From assembly GCF_900128425.1 (NCBI RefSeq), contig NZ_LT635782.1:471358-535357 (forward strand): a stretch of 64,000 nucleotides of DNA. Reading direction: 5' to 3'. The stretch comes from Anaerococcus urinomassiliensis. Its GTDB lineage: Bacteria; Bacillota; Clostridia; Tissierellales; Peptoniphilaceae. Shown piece after piece: positions 26,318 to 39,369 of the stretch. Within the stretch, counting starts at the first letter, position 1. Each line of letters opens with the position of its first letter. The notes below the pieces were generated by a model. That model ran no database searches. It was not told where the DNA came from and saw only the letters and a program-made list of their open reading frames with translations. A program made the translations under genes and the position numbers.

Positions 26318-26918
26318 AGTTTTAAGGGCTATCTTGATAATTTTTATCAAGCCTATTATGAGAGTTCATGTAAATGGTCTTGAAAATTTGCCGGAAAATA
26401 ATGACTATATCTTATGCGCCAACCACAAGTCCAATTGGGATCCAATATTTTTGGCCATATCTATTCCAAATCAAATATATTTTGTGGCCAAAAAAGAAAT
26501 CACTACTTGGCCAATTGTAGGTTGGATTACAAAAAAACTTGGTGTAATCCCAGTTGAAAGAGATGGTAGAGACTTGGCAAGCCTCAAACATAGTATCAAG
26601 TTGCTTAAAGAAGATAAAACTGTAGGGATAATGCCAGAAGGAACGAGGACTAAGAATATTGATAGGGCAAATATGAAAGATGGTGTCAGTTTTATGGCTT
26701 TAAAAGCAAAAGCTGATATCATTCCTGTTGAAATTATTTCAACATTTAAGCCCTTTAGAAAAACTTTAGTAAATATCCATCAGCCAGTAAAAGTTGATAA
26801 GTATTTGGATATGAAAACAAAGTTTGCTATGAAAGAGATGACCGATGAAGTGTTTACAAAAATTTATACTAGTAAACTTGAGGAAATAGAAGGTAAAAAT
26901 GCAGATAATTATAGCTGA
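26307..26918 (+). CDS. plsC: 1-acyl-sn-glycerol-3-phosphate acyltransferase
   Basis: Membrane-bound acyltransferase that makes phosphatidic acid from lysophosphatidic acid. An N-terminal hydrophobic segment (about residues 4-16) anchors it; the catalytic NHKSNWDP (NHX4D) and the MPEGTRT (EGTR) motifs are intact at about 37-44 and 110-116. 203 residues. Overlaps cmk by 11 bp and the ispH fusion by 20 bp. Confidence 0.94.
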   Translation: MLYKVLRAILIIFIKPIMRVHVNGLENLPENNDYILCANHKSNWDPIFLAISIPNQIYFVAKKEITTWPIVGWITKKLGVIPVERDGRDLASLKHSIKLLKEDKTVGIMPEGTRTKNIDRANMKDGVSFMALKAKADIIPVEIISTFKPFRKTLVNIHQPVKVDKYLDMKTKFAMKEMTDEVFTKIYTSKLEEIEGKNADNYS

Positions 26919-29112
26919 AAATTCAGGATTTTGCTTTGGCGTAAAAAGATCAGTAGATTTGGCAAGCCAGGCACTTGATAGCAAAAAAGACAAGTATACA
27001 GTAGGACCCTTAATTCATAATCCACAGCTTGTAGGAAAATTAGAAGAAGAGGGGCTAAAGGTAATTACAAAAGAACAAGCTCTAGAAATAAAGGATTCCT
27101 TGATCCTCATTAGGGCTCATGGAGAAAGCGCAGATTTCAAAAAAGCTTTAGTGGAAAATGGCAATGAAATCTTGGATGCTACTTGCCCTGTTCTTAGAAA
27201 TATATATAAAAAAATAATGGAAAAAGAAGATGAAGGATACCAGGTAATTATCATCGGAGATAGGAATCATCCAGAGATAAAAGCTATGGACTCTTATTTA
27301 AAAGATGGTATAATAATTATGAATGAGACTGAAGCAAAAAATATTAGATGTAAGAAGCCCATCTATGTAGTAAGTCAAACTACAAATAGAAGGGATTTTT
27401 ACTACAATGTTGCGAACATCTTAAAAGATAATAATGATAGTGTAGTAATAGATAACACAATATGTAATGCTACAAAACTAAGGCAAGATTCGGCAAAAGA
27501 CCTTGCCAAGGATGTAGATTGTATGATTGTAGTTGGTGGTTTTAATAGTTCTAATACAAATAAGCTTTTTGACGTGGCAAGTTTGTATAATAATAATGTT
27601 TTTAGGATTGAAACTGTTAAAGATCTACCTTTGCAAAAGCTCTCAGAATTTAAAAAAATTGGAATAATCGCAGGTGCGTCCACACCTGATGAGATTATTG
27701 AGGAGGTAGTAAGTAAAATGGATGAATTTACAAAAGAAGATTTTATGAATAGTCTTGAAGATAGTATGAAAAAAATCTATCCAAAAGATATTGTAACAGG
27801 AACAGTTATCGATGTTAAAGAAGATGAGGTTTTTGTTGACATTCAATACCGTGCAGATGGTATCATAAAACTTGATGAAATGACAGAAGAAGAAAGAAAA
27901 AATCCTAAAGAACATTTTGAAGTAGGATCAGAACTTGATGTTTATGTTATTAAACTTGATGATGGTGAAGGAAACGTATCACTATCAACTAGAAGAGTTC
28001 TAGGAATGAAGAGCTGGAAAGAACTATTAGAAAAATATGAAAACGACGAAATAGTTGAAGGTCATATAACAGGATTTAACAAAGGTGGTCTAACTGCTGA
28101 AGTTAACGGAATCCAAGGATTCATTCCTGCAAGCCAAGTTGCAACATATTTTGTTAAAAACTTCAAAAAATTCGTTGGTGAAACATGGGATTTAAAGATT
28201 GTTTCTATTGACGAAAGAAAAAATAGATTAGTTTTATCTCGTAAAGACGTTCTTGAAGGAGAACTAGAAGAAAGATGGGGAGAACTTGAAGAAGGTCAAG
28301 TAATAGAAGGTGAAGTAGCTAGACTTACAGACTTCGGTGCATTTGTTGAAGTAAATGGACTTGACGGATTACTTCACGTTTCTGACATTGCTTGGAGCAG
28401 AGTTGAAGTTCCATCTGATGTACTTAATGTAGGAGATAAAATCGAAGTTAAAATATTAAAATTAAACCAAGAAAAGAACAGAATTTCTCTTGGACGTAAA
28501 CAATTACTTGACAAACCATTCGATTCATTTGTAAACAGCCACGAAGTTGGAGATGTAGTAAAAGGTAAAGTAGTTAATCTACTAGACTTTGGTGCATTTG
28601 TTGAAGTAGCTGACGGAGTTGAAGGTTTAGTTCACGTTTCTGAAATTTCTTGGGATCACGTTGAAAAACCATCTGATGAACTTAATGTTGGTGATGAAAT
28701 CGAAGTTAAGATTATATCAATTGACAAAGAAGAAGAAAAAGTTGGTTTATCAATTAAACAACTAGAAGAAGCTCCAGAAAGACCAGAAAGAAAACCTAGA
28801 AGAGAAAATAGATCTAACAATAACCAAAATAGACCAAGAAGAAAAGCAGAAAGAAGTCAAAACCAAAACTTCTCTTCAGATGCGGACCTAAATAACAACC
28901 TAGGTAATCTTCTAGAACAAGCTCTACTTGGTGCTGGTGAAACAAATCTTATCGGCGAAGAAAATGAAGTTGATGGAGTTATAGATGATATTGAAGTTAA
29001 CGAAAATGTTGAAGAACAAGAAGAAGTTAGCGAAACAGAAATCAACACAGAAGAAGCTGCTGAATCTTTAGTTGAAGAAGAAGCAAGCGAAGCTGACGAA
29101 GAATTAGAATAA
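26899..29112 (+). CDS. ispH: IspH fused to ribosomal protein S1-like domains
   Basis: Bifunctional 737-residue protein. Residues 1 to about 285 are 4-hydroxy-3-methylbut-2-enyl diphosphate reductase, the last MEP-pathway enzyme, with the three [4Fe-4S] cysteines in GFCFGV (Cys12), DATCPV and TICNATK, and the GASTPDEII motif. From about residue 295 follow four S1 RNA-binding domains (starts near IVTGTV, IVEGHI, VIEGEV, VVKGKV), then a basic Arg/Asn-rich stretch and a long acidic tail. Codon choice becomes markedly more biased in the S1 part, fitting a highly expressed ribosome-associated protein. Such fusions are known in Clostridia and relatives; whether the parts are cleaved is unknown. Confidence 0.95.
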   Translation: MQIIIAENSGFCFGVKRSVDLASQALDSKKDKYTVGPLIHNPQLVGKLEEEGLKVITKEQALEIKDSLILIRAHGESADFKKALVENGNEILDATCPVLRNIYKKIMEKEDEGYQVIIIGDRNHPEIKAMDSYLKDGIIIMNETEAKNIRCKKPIYVVSQTTNRRDFYYNVANILKDNNDSVVIDNTICNATKLRQDSAKDLAKDVDCMIVVGGFNSSNTNKLFDVASLYNNNVFRIETVKDLPLQKLSEFKKIGIIAGASTPDEIIEEVVSKMDEFTKEDFMNSLEDSMKKIYPKDIVTGTVIDVKEDEVFVDIQYRADGIIKLDEMTEEERKNPKEHFEVGSELDVYVIKLDDGEGNVSLSTRRVLGMKSWKELLEKYENDEIVEGHITGFNKGGLTAEVNGIQGFIPASQVATYFVKNFKKFVGETWDLKIVSIDERKNRLVLSRKDVLEGELEERWGELEEGQVIEGEVARLTDFGAFVEVNGLDGLLHVSDIAWSRVEVPSDVLNVGDKIEVKILKLNQEKNRISLGRKQLLDKPFDSFVNSHEVGDVVKGKVVNLLDFGAFVEVADGVEGLVHVSEISWDHVEKPSDELNVGDEIEVKIISIDKEEEKVGLSIKQLEEAPERPERKPRRENRSNNNQNRPRRKAERSQNQNFSSDADLNNNLGNLLEQALLGAGETNLIGEENEVDGVIDDIEVNENVEEQEEVSETEINTEEAAESLVEEEASEADEELE

Positions 29113-30624: not shown

Positions 30625-31599
30625 ATGAGAGATGTAGTTGTTAAAGCAAAAGCTAAAATGGGAAAAATTCCCGATAATGATCTTTACTTAAATCTTGCAA
30701 GCTATGGTGACTTTGATAAAAAAGTTGATATACTTTCAAAAGCTTATCCCGACATTGATTACAGTAGGGAGAAAGTAAATCTTGAATCTAATAACTTTAA
30801 GAGGATTTTTGCAGAGATTAAAAGTATAGATTATTTTCTAACAGGTCTTGAAAGTGACTTCTTTAACCTATATTTTTCTAAATATGAGATTTTGTTTTTA
30901 CAAGAGATTATTGAGTCTCTTGTGAATGACAATTTTGCTGGGAACTATCTGACTTTCAAATCAAATCCTCTATCTGATAATTTTGTTATAGATAGCAAGA
31001 TGGATTTGGAATCTTTTATAAAGTCTAATCAAAATAGCAGATATTATAGGACCCTGCTACCATTTTTAAATAAAAATATGCAGGCTGAAAACTTGATATT
31101 TCTAACAAGTAATGCTCTTATGAAATTTTATTACAGATCTTTGTTAAAATTATCTAAGAAATTAAAAGAGCATAAACTTGTTAGGAATTTTTTGGGTGAA
31201 GAGATAAATCTACTAAATTTTGAAATGCTTTATAGGCTCAAGAACTACTATGACCTTAACGATGGTGATATTTTCAATTATCTAATCGAAGGTGGCAATA
31301 GTTTTAATGGAGAGAGATTAAAAGAACTTTCTCTTTTATCAAAAGATGAGTTTTTAGAAAAGATGAGATCGGGCAAATATAGGAAAGTCTTTGCAAGTAC
31401 TGATAATATTCATAAAGAAATTAGAAAATATGAGCTGAAACTTTACAAAAGTGAAATAACTAAAGAAGAATCAGACATATTATATGTAATTTCTGCGATG
31501 AATATTATTTTTATTAGTGAAGAAAATATAGAAGCCCTCATGGAATTAGATGATAGTTTCAATAAAGATGAACGTTTAGAATATTTAATAGTGAGGTAA
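30625..31599 (+). CDS. V/A-type ATPase subunit C (d/AC39-like)
   Basis: 324-residue, mostly helical subunit that caps the membrane rotor and couples it to the central stalk. The sequence is divergent but has the family's repeated three-helix pattern with phrases such as SIDYFLTGLESDFFNLY and IESLVNDNFAGNYL, the length fits (330-350), and it is the first gene of an otherwise complete V-ATPase operon that has no other candidate for this subunit. Its strong AGGAG site is at 30611-30615. It is followed after two bases by the first half of subunit I. Confidence 0.8.
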   Translation: MRDVVVKAKAKMGKIPDNDLYLNLASYGDFDKKVDILSKAYPDIDYSREKVNLESNNFKRIFAEIKSIDYFLTGLESDFFNLYFSKYEILFLQEIIESLVNDNFAGNYLTFKSNPLSDNFVIDSKMDLESFIKSNQNSRYYRTLLPFLNKNMQAENLIFLTSNALMKFYYRSLLKLSKKLKEHKLVRNFLGEEINLLNFEMLYRLKNYYDLNDGDIFNYLIEGGNSFNGERLKELSLLSKDEFLEKMRSGKYRKVFASTDNIHKEIRKYELKLYKSEITKEESDILYVISAMNIIFISEENIEALMELDDSFNKDERLEYLIVR

Positions 31600-31601
31600 C
31601 A

Positions 31602-32486
31602 ATGGCAGTTGAAAAAATGTATCTGGTAAATATGATATCTAACTTGGATAATTTGGATAACTTCCTAGAAGATGTTATTAAAATTGGTGAAATAGAACCA
31701 GTTGATGCCTTTAACCAAGTAACAAATAGGACATTTAACATACGTGCAAGCGCTGAGAATGTAGATATTACAGAAGATATCAATAAGCTATCAGGCTTTC
31801 AAAAAGACGATGATGGCTACAATGAGAAATTAGTTGAACTTAAAAATTCACTAAATCTAGCCGATAAAAAGGATGGTAATCTTGTAGATCCTCAAAGAGT
31901 TAACGAATTCTATGATAGGTTAAAGTCATTAATAAAAGAAAAAGAAGAGTTAGAAGAAAAATCTAGGCAACTAAACATTTACAAAGAAAATGTAGACAAA
32001 TTAAGAGAATATAATATTGATATAGAGAAAATCCAAAATCTAAAATTTTTTGATTATAGATATGGTTCTGTATCTGAAGATGGCCGTTTCATATTAAAAA
32101 ACAACTATGAAAATATTCCATCACTGATTATCCACTTAGATAATGATGTTGATAGGGCTAGTTTAAATGCTATAGAAGAAATCTATGCCCTAGATGAGAC
32201 TACTAATAATCTAAATGATCAGACAGAAAAAGTTCTTGCAAATGAGAGATTAAATACAAGAAATGTATCTCTTTCTCTTGACCAAGAATACAACAAGAAG
32301 ACAAAAGAAGAGTCAGAAAAAATCTATAATAAAATAATGGAAGATGCTAATAATAAAATCAATAGTATAAACGCTGACTACCAATCCAAAATAAACTTTA
32401 TGGACAACATCTATAAAGAACACAAGGGTGAGGTTATTGATAAAATTGTCGATTCTCTAATTGAAGATAAAGATTTTGAGATGTAA
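31602..32486 (+). CDS. V-type ATPase subunit I, N-terminal part, with C-terminal helical extension
   Basis: 294 residues. The start (MAVEKMYLVNMISN, then LDNFLEDVIKIGEIEP) and the later FFDYRYGSVSED/IPSLIIHLDND region match the N-terminal cytoplasmic lobe of subunit I (stator subunit a), with a coiled coil at about residues 105-145. Instead of continuing into the distal lobe and membrane domain, it ends in about 90 helical, charged residues (DQEYNKKTKEESEKI, INFMDNIYKEHKGEVIDKI) reminiscent of the peripheral-stalk subunit G/H. No separate G/H gene exists in this operon. The remainder of subunit I is the next gene, in a different frame, so this is not a simple nonsense mutation. The G/H resemblance is inference. 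Confidence 0.7.
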   Translation: MAVEKMYLVNMISNLDNLDNFLEDVIKIGEIEPVDAFNQVTNRTFNIRASAENVDITEDINKLSGFQKDDDGYNEKLVELKNSLNLADKKDGNLVDPQRVNEFYDRLKSLIKEKEELEEKSRQLNIYKENVDKLREYNIDIEKIQNLKFFDYRYGSVSEDGRFILKNNYENIPSLIIHLDNDVDRASLNAIEEIYALDETTNNLNDQTEKVLANERLNTRNVSLSLDQEYNKKTKEESEKIYNKIMEDANNKINSINADYQSKINFMDNIYKEHKGEVIDKIVDSLIEDKDFEM

Positions 32487-32491
32487 AGTTT

Positions 32492-34318
32492 ATGGCAAAT
32501 AGATTTAATAAGCCTAGAATTAATGGTCAGGTATATGATGAGGAGAGTTATCTATTAGTCTATCCAAAGAAAGTTCAAGAGGATATATCAAGAACAATTA
32601 ATTCATTGGGTTTTGTAGATAAGGAAATTTCATCAAAACAAGATGACTATGATATAGAAAATGAATTATGTGTTACGAAAAGGGACCTAGAAAATATAGA
32701 TCACAAAATTGATGATTTAATAAACGCTTATAAAGATATAGTTAATAACATATCTTATAACATCAATTATCAAAACAAGGCCAAGAATTTTGAAGAGTCT
32801 ATGGCCTATGGTGAAAAATATTTCTACTTCTCAGCCCAGGTTCCTGAAAAAAAGTTAAAGGAATTAGAAGATATGGCAGACAAATATCCTGATACTAGGA
32901 TAAGTAATGATGATAATTCTGATTTTAAAGTAAATTCTGACAAAGATAATAAAAAACTTTCAGATGAAGAAGATTACTTATTAATTTATCCTAAAAAGGT
33001 AAGAAAGGATGTATCAAGGTCTGTAAATACTTTGGGTTTTGTTAATAAAGACCTGCCTAAAGATTTGCTGATCAAAGATATTGATGAAAAACAAAGTCAA
33101 ACTAATAAAAGACTTGATGAAATAAATAGTCAGATAGAAGAAGTCAATAGAGATTATCAAGATATTTTGGGTAATATTTCCTATTCTATTGAGTATGAGA
33201 AAAAATCTGACGAATTGAAAAACAATATGGCTCATGGTGATTCGTATTTCTACTTATCCGGATGGGTACCAGAAAGCGAACTAAATAAGCTTGAAAGCTT
33301 AGAAGATAAGTATGATGATACCATTATCACAACAAAGGATGTGGATAGTGTAGACGAACAACCGCCTACTAAACTTAAAAACAATAAGTTTGTAAGACCT
33401 TTTGAATATATGGTCAATATGTACGGCGCTCCAAACTATGATGAGATTGACCCGACTCCATTTTTTGCAATAACATATATGTTATTATATGGGCTAATGT
33501 TTGGTGACCTTGGTCAAGGTTTAGTTTTCCTAGCACTTGGCTTTTGGTTATCAAAGAAAAATGAGACATTTGGAGCAATACTCAAAAGAATTGGTATATC
33601 AGCATCCATTTTTGGACTTATGTATGGATCGTTTTTTGGTAGAGAGGATTTGATTCCTGCCCTGCTTATAAAACCCTTTGATAACATCATGACAGTTCTA
33701 ATAGCATCAGTTGTCTTTGGTGTAACTTTAATGGTGATTTCATATATAATTGGTATTTATAACAAAGTACATCTTCAAAATAATATTGAAGAAGGAATCT
33801 TTGGTAAAGAAGGTCTTGCAGGACTTATGATGATGTCATCATTTATCATAATAGTTCTTGCGATTGTAAATGTAGGTCCAGTTCCAAAAAATCTTGGTAT
33901 AGTCTTACTTATACTTTCAATAGTTATGATGATATTTAAGCAACCTATAGCAAGAAAGATAGAAGGAAACAAGAGGCTATATGACCAAGCAAAGGGAGAT
34001 TACTATCTTGAAGGTTCATTTTCTGTGATAGAAGCTTTGCTTTCAGTATTTTCAAATCTTGTATCATTTACAAGAGTTGGAGCCTTTGCAATAAATCACG
34101 TAGGTTTATATATGGCTTTTGAAGTTATGGCAAAACTTGCTGGTGGTGGCATCAAGGGATTTATAATATTAGTCGTAGGAAATATATTTATAATCGGCCT
34201 AGAAGGCATGATCGTTGGTATCCAAGGATTAAGACTAGAATTTTACGAAATGTTTAGCAAGTATTATGAAGGAAATGGTCATTTATTTAGGCCAATCAGT
34301 CAAAGAAAAATTAACTAG
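32492..34318 (+). CDS. V-type ATPase subunit I, duplicated lobe plus membrane domain
   Basis: 608 residues. It lacks the normal N-terminal strand of subunit I and opens directly with the distal-lobe motif SYLLVYPKKVQEDISR. This lobe/coiled-coil unit occurs twice, at about residues 16-141 and 158-285 (DYLLIYPKKVRKDVSR), each ending in YFYFSAQVPE or YFYLSGWVPE. From about residue 315 a polytopic membrane domain with 7-8 helices follows; it contains MFGDLGQGL and, near the end, SFTRVGAFAINHVGL, which holds the essential stator arginine facing the c-ring. The Shine-Dalgarno is weak, so translation is probably coupled to the preceding gene 5 bp upstream. Confidence 0.88.
   Translation: MANRFNKPRINGQVYDEESYLLVYPKKVQEDISRTINSLGFVDKEISSKQDDYDIENELCVTKRDLENIDHKIDDLINAYKDIVNNISYNINYQNKAKNFEESMAYGEKYFYFSAQVPEKKLKELEDMADKYPDTRISNDDNSDFKVNSDKDNKKLSDEEDYLLIYPKKVRKDVSRSVNTLGFVNKDLPKDLLIKDIDEKQSQTNKRLDEINSQIEEVNRDYQDILGNISYSIEYEKKSDELKNNMAHGDSYFYLSGWVPESELNKLESLEDKYDDTIITTKDVDSVDEQPPTKLKNNKFVRPFEYMVNMYGAPNYDEIDPTPFFAITYMLLYGLMFGDLGQGLVFLALGFWLSKKNETFGAILKRIGISASIFGLMYGSFFGREDLIPALLIKPFDNIMTVLIASVVFGVTLMVISYIIGIYNKVHLQNNIEEGIFGKEGLAGLMMMSSFIIIVLAIVNVGPVPKNLGIVLLILSIVMMIFKQPIARKIEGNKRLYDQAKGDYYLEGSFSVIEALLSVFSNLVSFTRVGAFAINHVGLYMAFEVMAKLAGGGIKGFIILVVGNIFIIGLEGMIVGIQGLRLEFYEMFSKYYEGNGHLFRPISQRKIN
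32537..33346 (+). repeat. Tandem in-gene duplication of the subunit I distal lobe
   Basis: Two copies of an approximately 125-residue unit lie at about 32537-32914 and 32963-33346 in the same frame. Shared landmarks in the same order are YLL(V/I)YPKKV, the DISR/DVSR then LGFV box, a coiled coil ending in NISY, then a block with MA(Y/H)G..YFY and VPE, then the L..LED/LE.LEDKY..T helix. A 16-residue Asn/Asp/Lys-rich linker separates them. Divergence shows the duplication is not recent. Confidence 0.85.
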
Positions 34319-34344: not shown

Positions 34345-34779
34345 ATGATAAAAAATATTGGATTTTTAGCACTAGCTGTAGTAGTAATTACAATTTACTC
34401 AGGTTTATATTTATTAAAAAATAATGAAGATGCCTCAAAAGATAAAATTAGAAAAGCACTTAAAATTAATTTGTTCACTTTTGTTCCAGTAATGGCAATG
34501 ATAGTAGTATTACTATTGCCAGCAAACTCATCAGCGGCAGCTGACGCAGCAGGTACTGCAGCAAGTAGTGCTGATGGACTAAAATACATTGGTGCTGCAC
34601 TATCAACAGGTCTAGCTACTATTGGTACAGGATTTGCAGTAGGTAATGTAGGTTCTGCAGCACTTGGAGCAATTTCTGAAGACCAATCTATCCTAGGTCG
34701 TACAATTATCTTCGTAGGTCTAGCAGAAGGTATCGCTATTTTTGGTGTTATCATCTCAATCATGATTCTTAACGCTTAA
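34345..34779 (+). CDS. V-type ATPase subunit K (c-ring proteolipid)
   Basis: 144-residue rotor proteolipid with four membrane helices (about 5-24, 41-60, 78-108, 115-143). Only the last hairpin is c-like: GTGFAVGNVGSAALGAI and FVGLAEGIAIFG with the ion-carrying Glu128. An alanine-rich linker joins the two halves. This layout, with one carboxylate per four helices, is the clostridial K form. Coupling ion (Na+ or H+) cannot be decided by eye. Codon use is optimised, as expected for a multi-copy ring subunit. Confidence 0.93.
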   Translation: MIKNIGFLALAVVVITIYSGLYLLKNNEDASKDKIRKALKINLFTFVPVMAMIVVLLLPANSSAAADAAGTAASSADGLKYIGAALSTGLATIGTGFAVGNVGSAALGAISEDQSILGRTIIFVGLAEGIAIFGVIISIMILNA

Positions 34780-34780
34780 A

Positions 34781-35020
34781 ATGAAAGCAAGAATATTATC
34801 TAACGACCCAAGTCTTATTGTAATGTTTAGGCTTGGGTCTATTGAAGGGATACAAACTTCTACTTATGAACAAGCCAAAGAAAAGTTTTATGATTCAATA
34901 AAAGAAGATGACCTTGCAGTCTTGATTCTTACAAAAACTGTTGAAAGCTGGCTTATAAAAGAAGTAAAAGAGCACAAAGAAAGTGAAAGTATTCCTTTGA
35001 TTGTTGTAATAGATGGTTAA
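34781..35020 (+). CDS. V-type ATPase subunit F (short form)
   Basis: 79-residue Rossmann-like central-stalk subunit. FRLGSIEGIQTSTYEQA and LAVLILTKTVESWL fit the family, as does the final strand PLIVVIDG. Usual bacterial F subunits have about 100-105 residues and carry a further C-terminal helix after that strand; here the stop comes directly behind it and no continuation is seen in other frames. Starts one base after the K stop. Confidence 0.85.
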   Translation: MKARILSNDPSLIVMFRLGSIEGIQTSTYEQAKEKFYDSIKEDDLAVLILTKTVESWLIKEVKEHKESESIPLIVVIDG

Positions 35021-35031
35021 TTGGAGGTAAT

Positions 35032-35637
35032 ATGCTCGATTTAAATGCCAAACTCTCAACCTTTAGAAAAATGGTTTGGGATGAGGAAAAAGCAAAAAGT
35101 GAAAAAGAATTATATAATTCTACTCATATAAATAGTTCACAAATTGATGAAAAGAAAGATAATCTAGAAAAAGATTTGAAAAAGACCTTAGAATCTAGAA
35201 AATCTTTTGCACAAATTCGTGGCAATGAAAAAATTTCAAAATTAGAAGAAGAGCAAAAAACTAATTTTTATTCTCATAAGGAGTATCTATTAAATGATAT
35301 GGTTAGTGAGATTAAGAATAAGCTTAAAGAATATACAAAAACAGAAGATTACAAAAAAATCCTAAAAGAAAATATTGAAAAAGCACTAAAAGACCTAGAT
35401 GAAGATTCTAGTGACTTTACAATACTTGTAAAGGAAGCTGACAAAGATATATTGTCTTATCCTAATCTTGGAACAATGGATGATAAATATATCGGAGGCT
35501 TTATCCTCAAGGCTAATGATGGTTCTTACCAATATAATAGGACATATTTGGCAAGAATAGAAGATAATAAGTATGGAATAGGAAGAACTTTGTACAAGCT
35601 GTTTGAAAGAGAGAGTTTTAATGAATCCAAAAATTAA
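35032..35637 (+). CDS. V-type ATPase subunit E (peripheral stalk)
   Basis: 201 residues: a long charged N-terminal coiled coil (about 1-105) followed by a globular C-terminal domain with GGFILKANDGSYQYNRTYLARI, matching the GG(F/V)IL..DG..E(V/Y)..T..R pattern of subunit E. A GGAGG site precedes the ATG. Normally it pairs with subunit G/H, for which no separate gene is seen here. Overlaps subunit A by 17 bp. Confidence 0.9.
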   Translation: MLDLNAKLSTFRKMVWDEEKAKSEKELYNSTHINSSQIDEKKDNLEKDLKKTLESRKSFAQIRGNEKISKLEEEQKTNFYSHKEYLLNDMVSEIKNKLKEYTKTEDYKKILKENIEKALKDLDEDSSDFTILVKEADKDILSYPNLGTMDDKYIGGFILKANDGSYQYNRTYLARIEDNKYGIGRTLYKLFERESFNESKN

Positions 35638-37375
35638 AACAATAAATGGACCAGTAGTAGTAGCTAAAGATGCCAGCAGCCTTAAAATTCGTGAGATGGT
35701 ATCTGTAGGAAGTTTAAAACTTATTGGTGAAGTAATTTCAGTTGAAGGTGATTTTGCAACAATAGAAGTATACGAAGATACTTCTGGTCTTAAAGCAGGA
35801 GAAGAAGTAATTTCAACAGGTAGACCCCTATCTGTAAGACTTGGTCCTGGTCTTTTGAAAAATATGTTTGATGGTATAGAAAGACCTCTTGAAAAAATTC
35901 AAGATAAAAATGGAGCTTTTATACCTTCAGGTATTGGTTTTGAAAACCTAGACGAAGATAAAGATTGGGAAGTTGAAATTAAAGTAGCTGTGGGTGATAA
36001 GCTTCATGTTGGAGATATCTATGCTACTATAATGGAAACAAAAACAATAGAACATAGGCTTATGAGTACTTTCGATGGTACAGTCAAAGAAGTAAAACCA
36101 TCAGGAACATATAAGATTGAAGATACTGTAGTAATATTGGATACAAATGATGGCGAGAAGGAATTAAAACTATACCAGTACTGGCCAGTAAGAAATCCTA
36201 GACCAGTTAAAAAAGTTCGTCCATTAGAATTACTTTTAAATACTGGACAAAGAGTACTTGATGTATTCTTCCCAGTTGCCAAGGGTGGTACTGTAGCTAT
36301 TCCTGGAGGATTTGGTACAGGAAAAACCATGCTCCAACACCAATTTGCCCAATATGCAGATGCTGATATTATTATCTACATTGGCTGCGGTGAACGTGGA
36401 AATGAGATGACCCAGGTACTTGAAGAATTCCCTGAGCTAATAGACCCAAATACAGGCTATGGTCTAATGGAACGTACAATTCTTATTGCAAACACTTCAA
36501 ATATGCCAGTAGCAGCCCGTGAAGCTTCTATATATACAGGTATCACTATTGCAGAATACTTTAGGGATATGGGCTACCACGTTGCCCTTATGGCCGATTC
36601 CACATCTAGGTGGGCTGAGGCCCTTCGTGAAATATCTGGACGTCTAGAAGAAATTCCAGCAGAAGAAGGCTATCCGGCATATCTAGGAAGTCGTCTTTCA
36701 CAATTTTATGAAAGAGCGGGTTACTTTACAAATCTAAATGGATCCGAAGGTTCAGTTACTTTAATAGGTGCAGTTTCTCCATCTGGTGGTGACTTCTCAG
36801 AACCAGTAACAGAAAATACTCGTAGGTCAGTAAACGTGTTTTTAGGTCTTGATAGAAAACTTGCCTATTCACGTCACTACCCAGCTATCAACTGGATGAC
36901 ATCTTACTCAAACTACCTAGATACAATGAGAGCCTACTATCAAGAGAACACAGGAATAGATATTATCTCTATAAGAAATGAGCTAATGAATGTTCTTTTG
37001 CAAGAAGATGAAGTAAGATCAATTCTTATGCTTGTAGGTCAAGATGCCCTATCTGATAGTCAAAAAAATACCCTTGATGTGGCAGAACTTATTAGAGTAG
37101 GATTCTTGCAACAAAATGCCTACAATGATACAGATAAGTACGTACCATTAGAAAAACAAATAAAAATGCTTGAAGTGATCAAGAATTATTACAATTACTC
37201 AAAAGATGCCATCAAAAAAGGTATCCAATACAAGAACTTGTACAATCCAGATTTGATCAATGATATCACACAGATGAAATATACAATCAAAAATGATGAT
37301 TTAGACAAATTTGTAGACTTAAATAACAAAATTGAATCTCATTTTGTGAATTTAAAAGGAGGAATTAATGCGTAA
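35621..37375 (+). CDS. atpA: V-type ATPase subunit A (catalytic)
   Basis: Catalytic nucleotide-binding subunit of the V1 head, about 584 residues from ATG 35621; a TTG at 35603 in frame is less likely because AAAGAGAGAG sits just before 35621. Begins [12 protein letters not shown] (beta-barrel), has the non-homologous insertion (about 110-190), P-loop GGFGTGKT where GPFGSGKT is more usual, GCGERGNEM, and [16 protein letters not shown]. Overlaps subunit B by 8 bp. Confidence 0.97.
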
Positions 37376-38732
37376 GGAATATACCAAAGTAAAAAGAATT
37401 GAATCCTCCATCATAGAAATAGAAAAAGTTGCTGATATTGCCTATAACGCTGTTGTGTCAGTTCATGCTTTAGGTATGGACTTTGTAGGTCAAGTTGTAA
37501 AAATAGATGATGATACTATTTCAATAGAAGTTTTTGGCAATACCCAAGATTTCTCCCTAGATGATATAGTAATCAAGTTTGAAGAGAAACCATTAGCAAT
37601 ACCACTTAATGAAAATATCTTGGGAAGAACCTTCAATGGACTAGCACGTCCTATAGACAATGGTGGGGAAGTATACGCAGAAAAAACCTGCCCAGTAGAA
37701 GGTGAACCACTAAACCCAGTTGCTCGTGAGTATCCAAGAGATTTTATCCAAACAGGTATATCAGCAATCGATACCCTAACAACTCTAATCCGTGGACAAA
37801 AACTACCGATATTTTCAGGCTATGGTCTTTCACATAACCAAATAGCAGCGCAAATTGTAAGACAAGCAAAGCTAAAAACTGACGAAGACTTTGCCTTTGT
37901 ATTTGCAGCAATGGGAATCAAAAAAGACGAAGCTATGTTTTTTGAAGATGCATTTAACAAGGCTGGTGTCCGTGATAAGGTGGTAATGTATCAAAACCTT
38001 GCAGATAGCCCAATAATGGAACGTCTTATAGCTCCAAAATGCGCCCTAACTGCCGCAGAATATTTAGCCTACGAAAAGGGCTACCATGTTTTGGTAATAA
38101 TTACAGATATGACTTCATATTCTGAAGCATTGCGTGAGGTTTCATCAATTAGACAAGAAGTTCCTTCTCGTAAGGGTTACCCAGGCTACCTTTATTCAGA
38201 CCTTGCAACCCTATACGAAAGAGCTGGTATGATTCGTGGAACAAAGGGATCTGTTACCCTTATTCCAATATTAACTATGCCAAATGACGATATAACTCAC
38301 CCAGTACCTGACCTTACAGGATATATAACAGAGGGACAAATAGTAATTGATAGAGGACTATTTAATAAGGGGATCTATCCACCAATCAATGTTCTTCCAT
38401 CCTTATCCCGTCTTATGAAAGATGGTATTGGAGAAGGATATACCAGGGCGGACCACGAAGACTTAATGAACCAAATTTATGAGTCATATTCTCACGTTGG
38501 AGAAGTAAGAAATATAGCTCAAATAGTTGGCGAAGATGACCTATCAGATATTGATAAGAAGTATTTGGAATTCGGGGATGAGTTTGAAAGAAGATTCCTA
38601 TCCCAAGATCCGACCGAGAATAGAGAGCTTGATCAAAGCTTAGATTTAGGTTGGGAAATCCTAAATATATTGCCAAGAACTGAACTACACAGGGTGAGTC
38701 CTGAAAATTTGGATAAGTTTATAGGTAAGTAG
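37368..38732 (+). CDS. atpB: V-type ATPase subunit B (regulatory)
   Basis: Non-catalytic nucleotide-binding subunit of the V1 head, 454 residues. [26 protein letters not shown], in which the P-loop is degenerate as normal for [15 protein letters not shown], and [16 protein letters not shown] with ARGGMRG-like [18 protein letters not shown] identify it. Pairs with subunit A; start ATG lies within the subunit A end. Confidence 0.97.
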
Positions 38733-38733
38733 T

Positions 38734-39369
38734 ATGGAAATAAAATCAACAGCCCCTACCAAGGCCAATTTGATTGCAGCCAAAGACCAATTAAACTTAT
38801 TAAACACAGGACTTGATATCCTAGATAAGTCTAGAAAAGCTCTAATAGGAGCCCATGACTCTAAGATTAAGCAAAGAGATGAGCTAAACACAGAAGTAAA
38901 TGAAACAATAGAAAGAGTTAGCAAAAACTTTAAAAAAGCTATGGTTACTATGGGAGAGGCAAAGCTAAATGATATAGCAAGCCTACTTCCAGTTGATAAT
39001 AGCATCAAGCTTAAGGAAAGTGAGTTTATGCAGACAAAGGTCTATGACATAGATTTTACGCCTCAAAAGCTAAGCTTATCATATTCATTTTATGAAACAA
39101 ACGAGACATTTGACCAAGCTGTACTATCGTTTAATGAGCTTAAAAGCAAAATTTTAAAATTAGCAGAACTTGATACGACTATAAATAACCTTGATAGGCA
39201 AATCAAAAAAACAAGTAAAAAAGTAAATTCCCTAGAAAAAGTTCAAATACCAAAACTAGAGGATAGAATAAAAGAAATATCTTCTTTAATCGAAGAAAAA
39301 GAAAGAGAAGAGTTCTCAAAAACGAAGATGGTTAAAGATAGGAAATTAAAAGAAAACACCGAAGTTTAA
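38734..39369 (+). CDS. atpD: V-type ATPase subunit D (central stalk)
   Basis: 211-residue rotor axle with the typical antiparallel coiled coil: APTKANLIAAKDQL at the start, the long helix to about residue 80, and the returning helix from about 145 onward (TSKKVNSLEKVQIPKLEDRI). Last gene of the V-ATPase operon; its stop lies in the shared terminator hairpin with rodA. Confidence 0.94.
   Translation: MEIKSTAPTKANLIAAKDQLNLLNTGLDILDKSRKALIGAHDSKIKQRDELNTEVNETIERVSKNFKKAMVTMGEAKLNDIASLLPVDNSIKLKESEFMQTKVYDIDFTPQKLSLSYSFYETNETFDQAVLSFNELKSKILKLAELDTTINNLDRQIKKTSKKVNSLEKVQIPKLEDRIKEISSLIEEKEREEFSKTKMVKDRKLKENTEV

Follow-up and report, generated by a model that had tools for sequence, protein, structure and literature searches.

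Split subunit I with a putatively fused stalk subunit suggests an unusual, perhaps two-armed, stator in the V-type ATPase of Anaerococcus

Results and Discussion

Subunit I is encoded as two proteins throughout the genus

In Anaerococcus urinomassiliensis, subunit I of a V-type ATPase, the membrane-anchored subunit of the stator, is encoded as two separate proteins, the first of which appears to carry the peripheral stalk subunit G/H as a fused C-terminal domain. Both genes are located on the forward strand of a stretch of 64,000 nucleotides (contig NZ_LT635782.1, positions 471,358 to 535,357; referred to as the window, whose own numbering is used unless a locus is named). They are spaced by 5 bp and lie in different reading frames, as already noticed in an interpretation made from the DNA letters without database searches (the sequence-only reading). 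Based on the results described below, it is proposed that the G gene was inserted into the I gene at a turn in the distal lobe of the cytoplasmic arm, and that the two resulting chains would rebuild one arm with a stalk rooted in it through G. A probability of approximately 0.8 is assigned to this account as a whole. The two genes and their parts are listed below (ORF, open reading frame; HMM, hidden Markov model; E, expectation value).

31602..32486, forward strand: protein 1 (P1), 294 amino acids, N-terminal half of subunit I with putatively fused stalk subunit G/H (ORF and profile comparisons)
31602..32141, forward strand: P1 residues 1-180 (In), predicted first half of the proximal lobe, first coil helix and first half of the distal lobe, ending in NIPSLIIHLD (profile match 99.8%, motif position)
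32142..32483, forward strand: P1 residues 181-294, putative fused stalk subunit G/H, core of the match at approximately residues 190-288 (hhalign 98.8%, E 1.4e-16 against free G of relatives)
32487..32491, forward strand: 5-bp gap between the P1 stop and the P2 start, with frame change (sequence)
32492..34318, forward strand: protein 2 (P2), 608 amino acids, the membrane domain of subunit I preceded by two half-arm units in tandem (ORF, Pfam, unit HMM)
32546..32935, forward strand: R1, inner half-arm copy, P2 residues 19-148, predicted second half of the distal lobe, coil helix and second half of the proximal lobe; Trp of the GWVPE motif lost (SAQVPE) (unit HMM, E 1.6e-36)
32903..32971, forward strand: charged 23-residue linker between R1 and R2, P2 residues 138-160, overlapping the tail of the R1 HMM match (limits read from the sequence)
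32972..33358, forward strand: R2, half-arm copy adjoining the membrane domain, P2 residues 161-289, GWVPE retained (unit HMM, E 9.3e-44)
33359..34315, forward strand: membrane domain of subunit I, P2 residues 290-608; its Arg528 and Arg581 align with Enterococcus hirae R573 and R629 (alignment, invariant columns)

The lobe names given for In follow from mapping to subunit I of Thermus and from the description of that subunit in PMC7367684.

P1 was matched in all 31 genomes of Anaerococcus, and P1 and P2 were found as separate frames at 30 further loci of the genus, three of which carry additional interruptions (in P2 in G179, G199 and G205, and also in P1 in G199). Since the split recurs in every genome and at all of these two-gene loci, it represents neither an assembly error nor the decay of a single strain. 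Together with the purifying selection on its parts described below for species with two half-arm copies, this rules out sequencing error or decay and bears out the earlier view of a real split within an intact operon. The split of subunit I is real and fixed in Anaerococcus.

A family-wide search covered 130 genomes, of which 92 gave a match. Full P1 (profile positions 1 to approximately 290) was obtained from the 31 Anaerococcus genomes and from two genomes of a second genus (g255; two out of an unlisted genus total). In 50 genomes of other genera, the N-terminal half of I resides inside a frame of 643-671 amino acids representing whole I. The remaining matches comprised one cut by a contig end, one broken frame and seven that were restricted to the G part or weak. 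Furthermore, 13 genomes matched in a phylum-level sample of 398, with full P1 present in the window's own genome only. A continuous frame in close relatives had been named in advance as counter-evidence. No continuous subunit I ORF was found among the 31 Anaerococcus genomes, and those detected all occur outside the genus; they therefore date the split and do not refute it. In a tree of the A and B proteins (46 rows, selected among the named loci plus the window), the split lineages form one branch of 27 rows (100/100), among them L136, which is cut before P1.

At 16 of the 23 evaluable loci (L115, L116, L119-L126, L128, L129, L132, L134, L135 and L138), P1 and P2 share a reading frame and are separated by one stop, and at no fewer than seven of these (L119-L125) this stop is followed immediately by the first possible start. 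Occasional read-through or a formerly continuous frame is possible at such loci. Moreover, in A. senegalensis and one further genome (L094:3979-5393, L097:3939-5353 and L137), P2 is interrupted between its cytoplasmic part and the membrane domain, inside a long A run common to several relatives; intact relatives exist. Slippage, a sequencing error or a true second split may account for this interruption. Both the P1 and the P2 frames are interrupted in A. hydrogenalis (L101/L133). In Peptoniphilus timonensis (L161), subunit I appears as frames of 125 and 480 amino acids, which probably represent a broken or misread frame; it is whole in the other named Peptoniphilus loci listed.

The break is located within the distal lobe

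The I part of P1 ends with NIPSLIIHL, and the next piece of the subunit begins with YLLxYPKK. In relatives possessing whole I, the spacing between the two corresponding profile matches amounts to six residues in 39 of 53 cases and to 6-9 residues in 51 of 53. By alignment, the break maps to approximately residue 173 of Thermus subunit I, for which residues 144 and 196-201 are named in contacts of the distal subdomain (PMC7367684). The break thus lies inside the distal lobe, at the short turn between its two halves, and the lobe would therefore have to be rebuilt from two chains. As judged from the sequence pattern, the strands joined at this turn would form a beta hairpin. The sequence-only reading had placed the break at a domain border, which is ruled out by the mapping to residue 173 and by the 6-9-residue turn. 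The two genes are located where that reading placed them; the cut through the distal lobe itself, the stalk fusion of approximately 105 amino acids and the half-arm duplication had been missed.

The same turn of the distal lobe carries a long insertion in subunit a of eukaryotic V-ATPases (7uw9, 36qx and 36qu, plant-type and other eukaryotic chains; HMMER alignments), and the site therefore seems to tolerate inserts. The eukaryotic subunit differs in consisting of one chain, and the yeast enzyme is described with three stalks composed of subunits E and G (EG stalks; PMC5758568).

Regarding the identity of the two proteins, P2 matches PF01496 (V_ATPase_I; E 7.4e-28). P1 alone did not reach the cut-off of any curated family, including PF01496, and its relationship to subunit I was recognized by profile-profile comparison of residues 1-186 with the N-terminal half of I (99.8%). 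At NCBI, near-identical P1 proteins are labeled ‘subunit I domain-containing protein’ in some strains and hypothetical in others. The I half of P1 is already partly annotated in these names; the names shown do not include G.

The C-terminus of P1 resembles the free stalk subunit of relatives

In the relatives fetched for comparison, the operon has the order G-C-I-K-F-E-A-B-D, where G is a free gene of approximately 105 amino acids; some of these small frames were detected only by further searches. A free G precedes I at 52 of the 54 unsplit named loci, or at 53 when a larger profile is applied. The last 105-110 residues of P1, represented by a profile from 24 of the 31 P1 proteins (the other seven lacked the motif used for cutting), matched free G with 98.8% (E 1.4e-16 over 100 columns); the negative controls, subunits E and D, reached 0.1-0.7%. 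Against a profile of 46 free G sequences, the fused domain scored 98.9%. Furthermore, the free-G profile matched 30 of the 31 genus genomes exactly once, 29 times inside P1 and once in the broken P1 of G199, the single match in the window's genome being located at G000:C10:503526-503822; a free G of this type was not found in the 31 genomes by this search. Among the 262 ORFs of at least 40 amino acids in the window, no other clear free G was present: P1 scored 3.7e-14 and the next frame 0.023 with the first free-G profile, and 1.4e-17 and 0.0015, respectively, with the larger one. In a G tree built on few columns, 25 fused G form one branch (97/91). Judged by this tree and that of A and B, the split arrangement has a single origin.

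Because it is homologous to the free gene found in operons of this type, the P1 C-terminus is interpreted as stalk subunit G/H (NtpF, AhaH type), and the operon would lack a free stalk subunit because G is fused to the first half of I. An unrelated coiled coil in this place would explain why no curated family scores above cut-off on the P1 C-terminus, but it is considered highly improbable given the profile match over nearly the full length of G with E and D as controls, the common branch of the fused G domains, and the failure to find the free gene where the fusion exists. An internal translation start yielding a free G from P1 was also rejected: residues 161-215 of the window's P1 contain no in-frame ATG, GTG or TTG, and a TTG preceded by a four-base ribosome-site word occurs in this region in three of 24 relatives, with none widely shared.

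Operon context and membrane domain

P1 and P2 are part of an operon with the order C-P1-P2-K-F-E-A-B-D, in which C, K, F, E, A, B, D and P2 were identified by Pfam. Taking the G profile comparison into account, all nine subunits appear to be encoded, I as two chains and G as a fused domain. The neighboring genes are the following.

30625..31599, forward strand: V-ATPase subunit C (AC39; PF01992, E 1.4e-24)
34345..34779, forward strand: V-ATPase subunit K, c ring (PF00137, E 3e-15)
34781..35020, forward strand: V-ATPase subunit F (PF01990, E 1.2e-8)
35032..35637, forward strand: V-ATPase subunit E, which pairs with G in peripheral stalks (PF01991, E 1e-5, 25.5 bits, barely passing the cut-off of 24.2)
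35621..37375, forward strand: V-ATPase subunit A (PF00006, E 2.8e-77, run on the piece from 35627; start taken as ATG at 35621, alternative TTG start at 35603)
37368..38732, forward strand: V-ATPase subunit B (PF00006, E 7.4e-77)
38734..39369, forward strand: V-ATPase subunit D (PF01813, E 2.5e-39)

Elsewhere in the window, a frame of 737 amino acids (26899-29112) resembles a fusion of IspH and ribosomal protein S1. The same genome also harbors a second, ordinary-looking V-ATPase operon (L005; G000:C10:1793000-1808000) of the order G-I-K-E-C-F-A-B-D, as read from its frames, with a whole I of 644 amino acids identified by Pfam and a free G of 107 amino acids identified weakly by Pfam.

In the membrane domain of P2, Arg528 and Arg581 align with R573 and R629 of E. 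hirae, and both columns are invariant in 16 sequences. The two E. hirae residues are described as facing the c ring with a role in translocation (PMC10382590). Since the translocation arginines are kept and P1 and P2 are under purifying selection in species with two half-arm copies, the split enzyme probably works.

Proposed origin and assembly of the split stator

In the common ancestor of Anaerococcus and its nearest split relatives, the G/H gene would have moved from its site upstream of C into the I gene, entering at the turn that connects the two distal-lobe halves. Translation would stop after G and restart for the rest of I. P1, comprising the N-terminal half of I and G, and P2, comprising the C-terminal half and the membrane domain, would then reassemble non-covalently into one stator arm with a distal lobe composed of both chains. 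One peripheral stalk would thereby be covalently rooted in the distal lobe via its G chain, and the fused G would pair with subunit E. For Thermus, it is reported that the N-terminal tips of two EG stalks bind the arm (PMC5758568) and that the two globular subdomains of the arm bind the proximal and the distal stalk (PMC7367684); if the N-terminus of G is joined to the distal lobe, this G would therefore begin at a usual stalk position. A length of 140 Å is given for the EG coiled coil (PMC6131620). A break after G would be needed because G is a long rod, the far end of which would be located on V1, too distant for the chain to come back to the lobe.

Several observations weigh against this account. 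The composition described for the known enzyme is A3B3E2G2a1, that is, two G per one I (PMC5758568), and a 1:1 fusion of I and G leaves one G unaccounted for. Moreover, the free gene was named G/H mainly by its place, its size and the absence of another candidate. Compared with the stalk families of Pfam and NCBIfam, free G scores below cut-off or not at all (V-ATPase_G_2 in one of nine sequences, E 0.026; NCBIfam subunit H in four of nine, best E 0.038), and the likeness to the G of the second V-ATPase is weak (17.8% for the fused domain, 39.5% for free G). G193 possesses P1 with a G domain below threshold. Finally, the members of the second genus are not united on one branch of the A and B tree, where L126 joins L131.

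Half-arm copies in P2

The P2 of the window contains two half-arm copies detected with the half-arm HMM, R1 and R2. Among the 31 genus genomes, nine have two copies and 19 have one, and three have one copy in an interrupted frame. P2 proteins of 856 amino acids with three full copies and one partial copy were found in P0154 and P0155 (the latter being Anaerococcus sp. ENR1011), suggesting that the copy number is still changing, and a further remnant of 75 residues was observed in G167 (E 0.03). In the unit tree, both L128 copies are placed outside the branch that holds both copies of seven other two-copy proteins (14 rows, 100/99) and therefore appear to derive from a separate duplication, R1 of L128 being a long branch. 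The inner copy of strain P3625 is also placed outside the main inner-copy branch. According to this tree, the half-arm duplication arose at least twice.

Ratios of nonsynonymous to synonymous substitution rates (dN/dS) were obtained for six of the 28 possible pairs of eight two-copy sequences; dS reached 2.1 and some values are rough. They ranged from 0.11 to 0.36 for inner copies and from 0.05 to 0.22 for membrane-side copies, the inner copy evolving faster in all six pairs, and amounted to 0.01-0.22 for the N-terminal half of I and 0.04-0.18 for G. P1, both half-arms and the membrane domain are under purifying selection in the two-copy group. The distal-lobe piece is kept better than the coil in R1 (67% vs. 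33%); R2 shows the same contrast (78% vs. 49%), and this feature was dropped as an argument for R1. The Trp of GWVPE is lost in all nine inner copies and kept in all nine last copies and all 21 single units. In the scored records P0121-P0240, it is absent from 120 of 121 inner units and present in 117 of 119 last units. Linkers between copies comprise 23-34 residues in 124 of the 129 scored and 82-94 residues in the other five.

Between L081 and L076 (A. octavius, A. nagyae), the membrane domains of P2 are 97% identical (dS 0.28), and P1 and the half-arms are 57-77% identical (dS 1.2-1.6). The membrane part of P2 looks like the result of a recent exchange.

Membrane-less arms in Soehngenia

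In Soehngenia operons, a second, membrane-less I arm stands beside a complete I. This arm has 344 amino acids in L194-L196 and 468 in L149/L197, which represent the same protein, and in L154. Positions of the extra arms are as follows.

L149:2960-4366, extra arm
L154:2960-4366, extra arm
L194:4703-5737, extra arm
L195:4464-5498, extra arm

A G match was obtained for the end of the L149 arm (2e-5); detecting one at the end of the L154 arm required the larger profile. In the G tree, both ends cluster with the free G of their locus. L195 retains the Trp of GWVPE, which is missing from L149, L154 and L194. For the 344-amino-acid arm, 5.8 billion proteins were searched and only six relatives obtained. 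Among 291 genomes sampled across the class, three (G004, G036 and G048) contained a clear short arm beside whole I; two further short frames had 366 and 402 amino acids, and short frames in G040 and G106 are located at contig ends. Soehngenia and Anaerococcus are alike in the independent gain of an extra I arm, which in two Soehngenia records is joined to an extra G-like domain. Soehngenia differs in that full I and free G were kept and the extra arm is an unsplit, separate protein.

Possible stoichiometries of the stator

If G exists only as a fusion and the enzyme has two stalks, the second stalk needs a second P1. In single-copy species, the I half of this second P1 would have nothing to pair with; in two-copy species, R1 could fill this role. 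Two P1 may thus dock on R1 and R2 of a single P2, each arm carrying its own stalk on one membrane domain. This arrangement is put forward tentatively. It is consistent with the two half-arm units in nine of the 31 genomes, the apparent constraint on R1, the separate duplication in L128 and a linker of a length predicted to permit a return from the proximal to the distal lobe. Moreover, Trp is lost in R1 as if this arm were not directly joined to the membrane domain, and Soehngenia has independently gained a second arm that lacks a membrane domain and, in one lineage, carries a G of its own. However, the 19 intact single-copy genomes manage with one half-arm, R1 evolves faster than R2, and the better-kept distal piece is not special to R1. 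Ribosome-binding strengths likewise give no support for a general 2:1 excess of P1 over P2: the P1 site is the stronger one in the window (-7.8 vs. -2.8 for P2), and the order is reversed in the medians of single-copy species (-7.8 for P1 vs. -10.05 for P2).

The faster evolution of R1 would also be expected if this copy were a decaying leftover of a tandem duplication with no role, and the 75-residue remnant in G167 as well as the drifting copy number in P0154/P0155 fit such an origin. Nevertheless, dN/dS values below 0.37, a frame intact in nine of nine genomes and the steady linker length make it doubtful that R1 lacks a role. An enzyme with P1 and P2 in a 1:1 ratio and a single EG stalk would agree with the single G fused to each I half, no further G of this type having been found in the genome, and it would account simply for the single-copy species. 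It appears unlikely in view of A and B subunits that look standard, of the two stalks described for solved prokaryotic V/A-ATPases (PMC5758568, PMC6131620), and of the repeated, constrained duplication of the half-arm, for which it gives no reason. As a further source of the missing G, the second stalk could borrow it from the other V-ATPase operon, whose free 107-amino-acid G belongs to a type present in all 31 genomes. Such borrowing is very unlikely, given the weak likeness of the two G types (profile probability of 17.8-39.5%) and the presence of a separate E in each operon.

Comparison with known rotary ATPases

The Anaerococcus enzyme shares its subunits, as judged by profile (C, I, K, F, E, A, B and D), with the V/A-ATPases of Thermus thermophilus and E. 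hirae, as well as both translocation arginines of I. In those enzymes, the stalk is described as anchored on the cytoplasmic arm of I (PMC7367684, PMC5758568). They differ in that I is one chain and G is separate, whereas in Anaerococcus I consists of two chains, G appears to be fused and, in the window, the second half-arm is duplicated.

Stalk-subunit fusions are already known from F-type enzymes, as described for mycobacterial b-delta (PMC8617483) and for N-ATPases (PMC11738941). Mycobacterial b-delta is similar in that two stator subunits are fused and a duplicated domain is part of the same fused stator. In that protein, an additional helical bundle links b and delta, both canonical, and no split subunit is named in the available part of PMC8617483; in Anaerococcus, by contrast, the fusion splits one subunit and the duplicated piece resides in the other chain. 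The b-delta protein of N-ATPases likewise represents a natural fusion of peripheral stalk subunits, and the available part of PMC11738941 describes no split of a membrane-anchored stator subunit. Among the matches listed in the open literature, judged by title and start of abstract, no split subunit I or I-G fusion was found for V/A-ATPases, which does not establish its absence from print.

Conclusions

Solved bacterial V/A-ATPases are described as sharing one plan, with one I chain and two separate EG stalks (PMC5758568, PMC6131620). The results suggest that the stator of Anaerococcus has been rewired, with an arm cut within a folded lobe, a stalk attached covalently at the cut, and a half-arm that has been copied in some species; its overall anchor would be unusual and perhaps two-armed. 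This opens the question of how much of a stator must be one chain to hold torque, and whether every stalk requires a separate anchoring site. Known enzymes contain two G per I, and with G tied here to half of I, a clear stoichiometry prediction follows. If two arms were present, the fusion would force two N-terminal halves of I into each complex, each stalk would stand on its own arm of one membrane domain, and a similar design would have arisen in Soehngenia along a different path.

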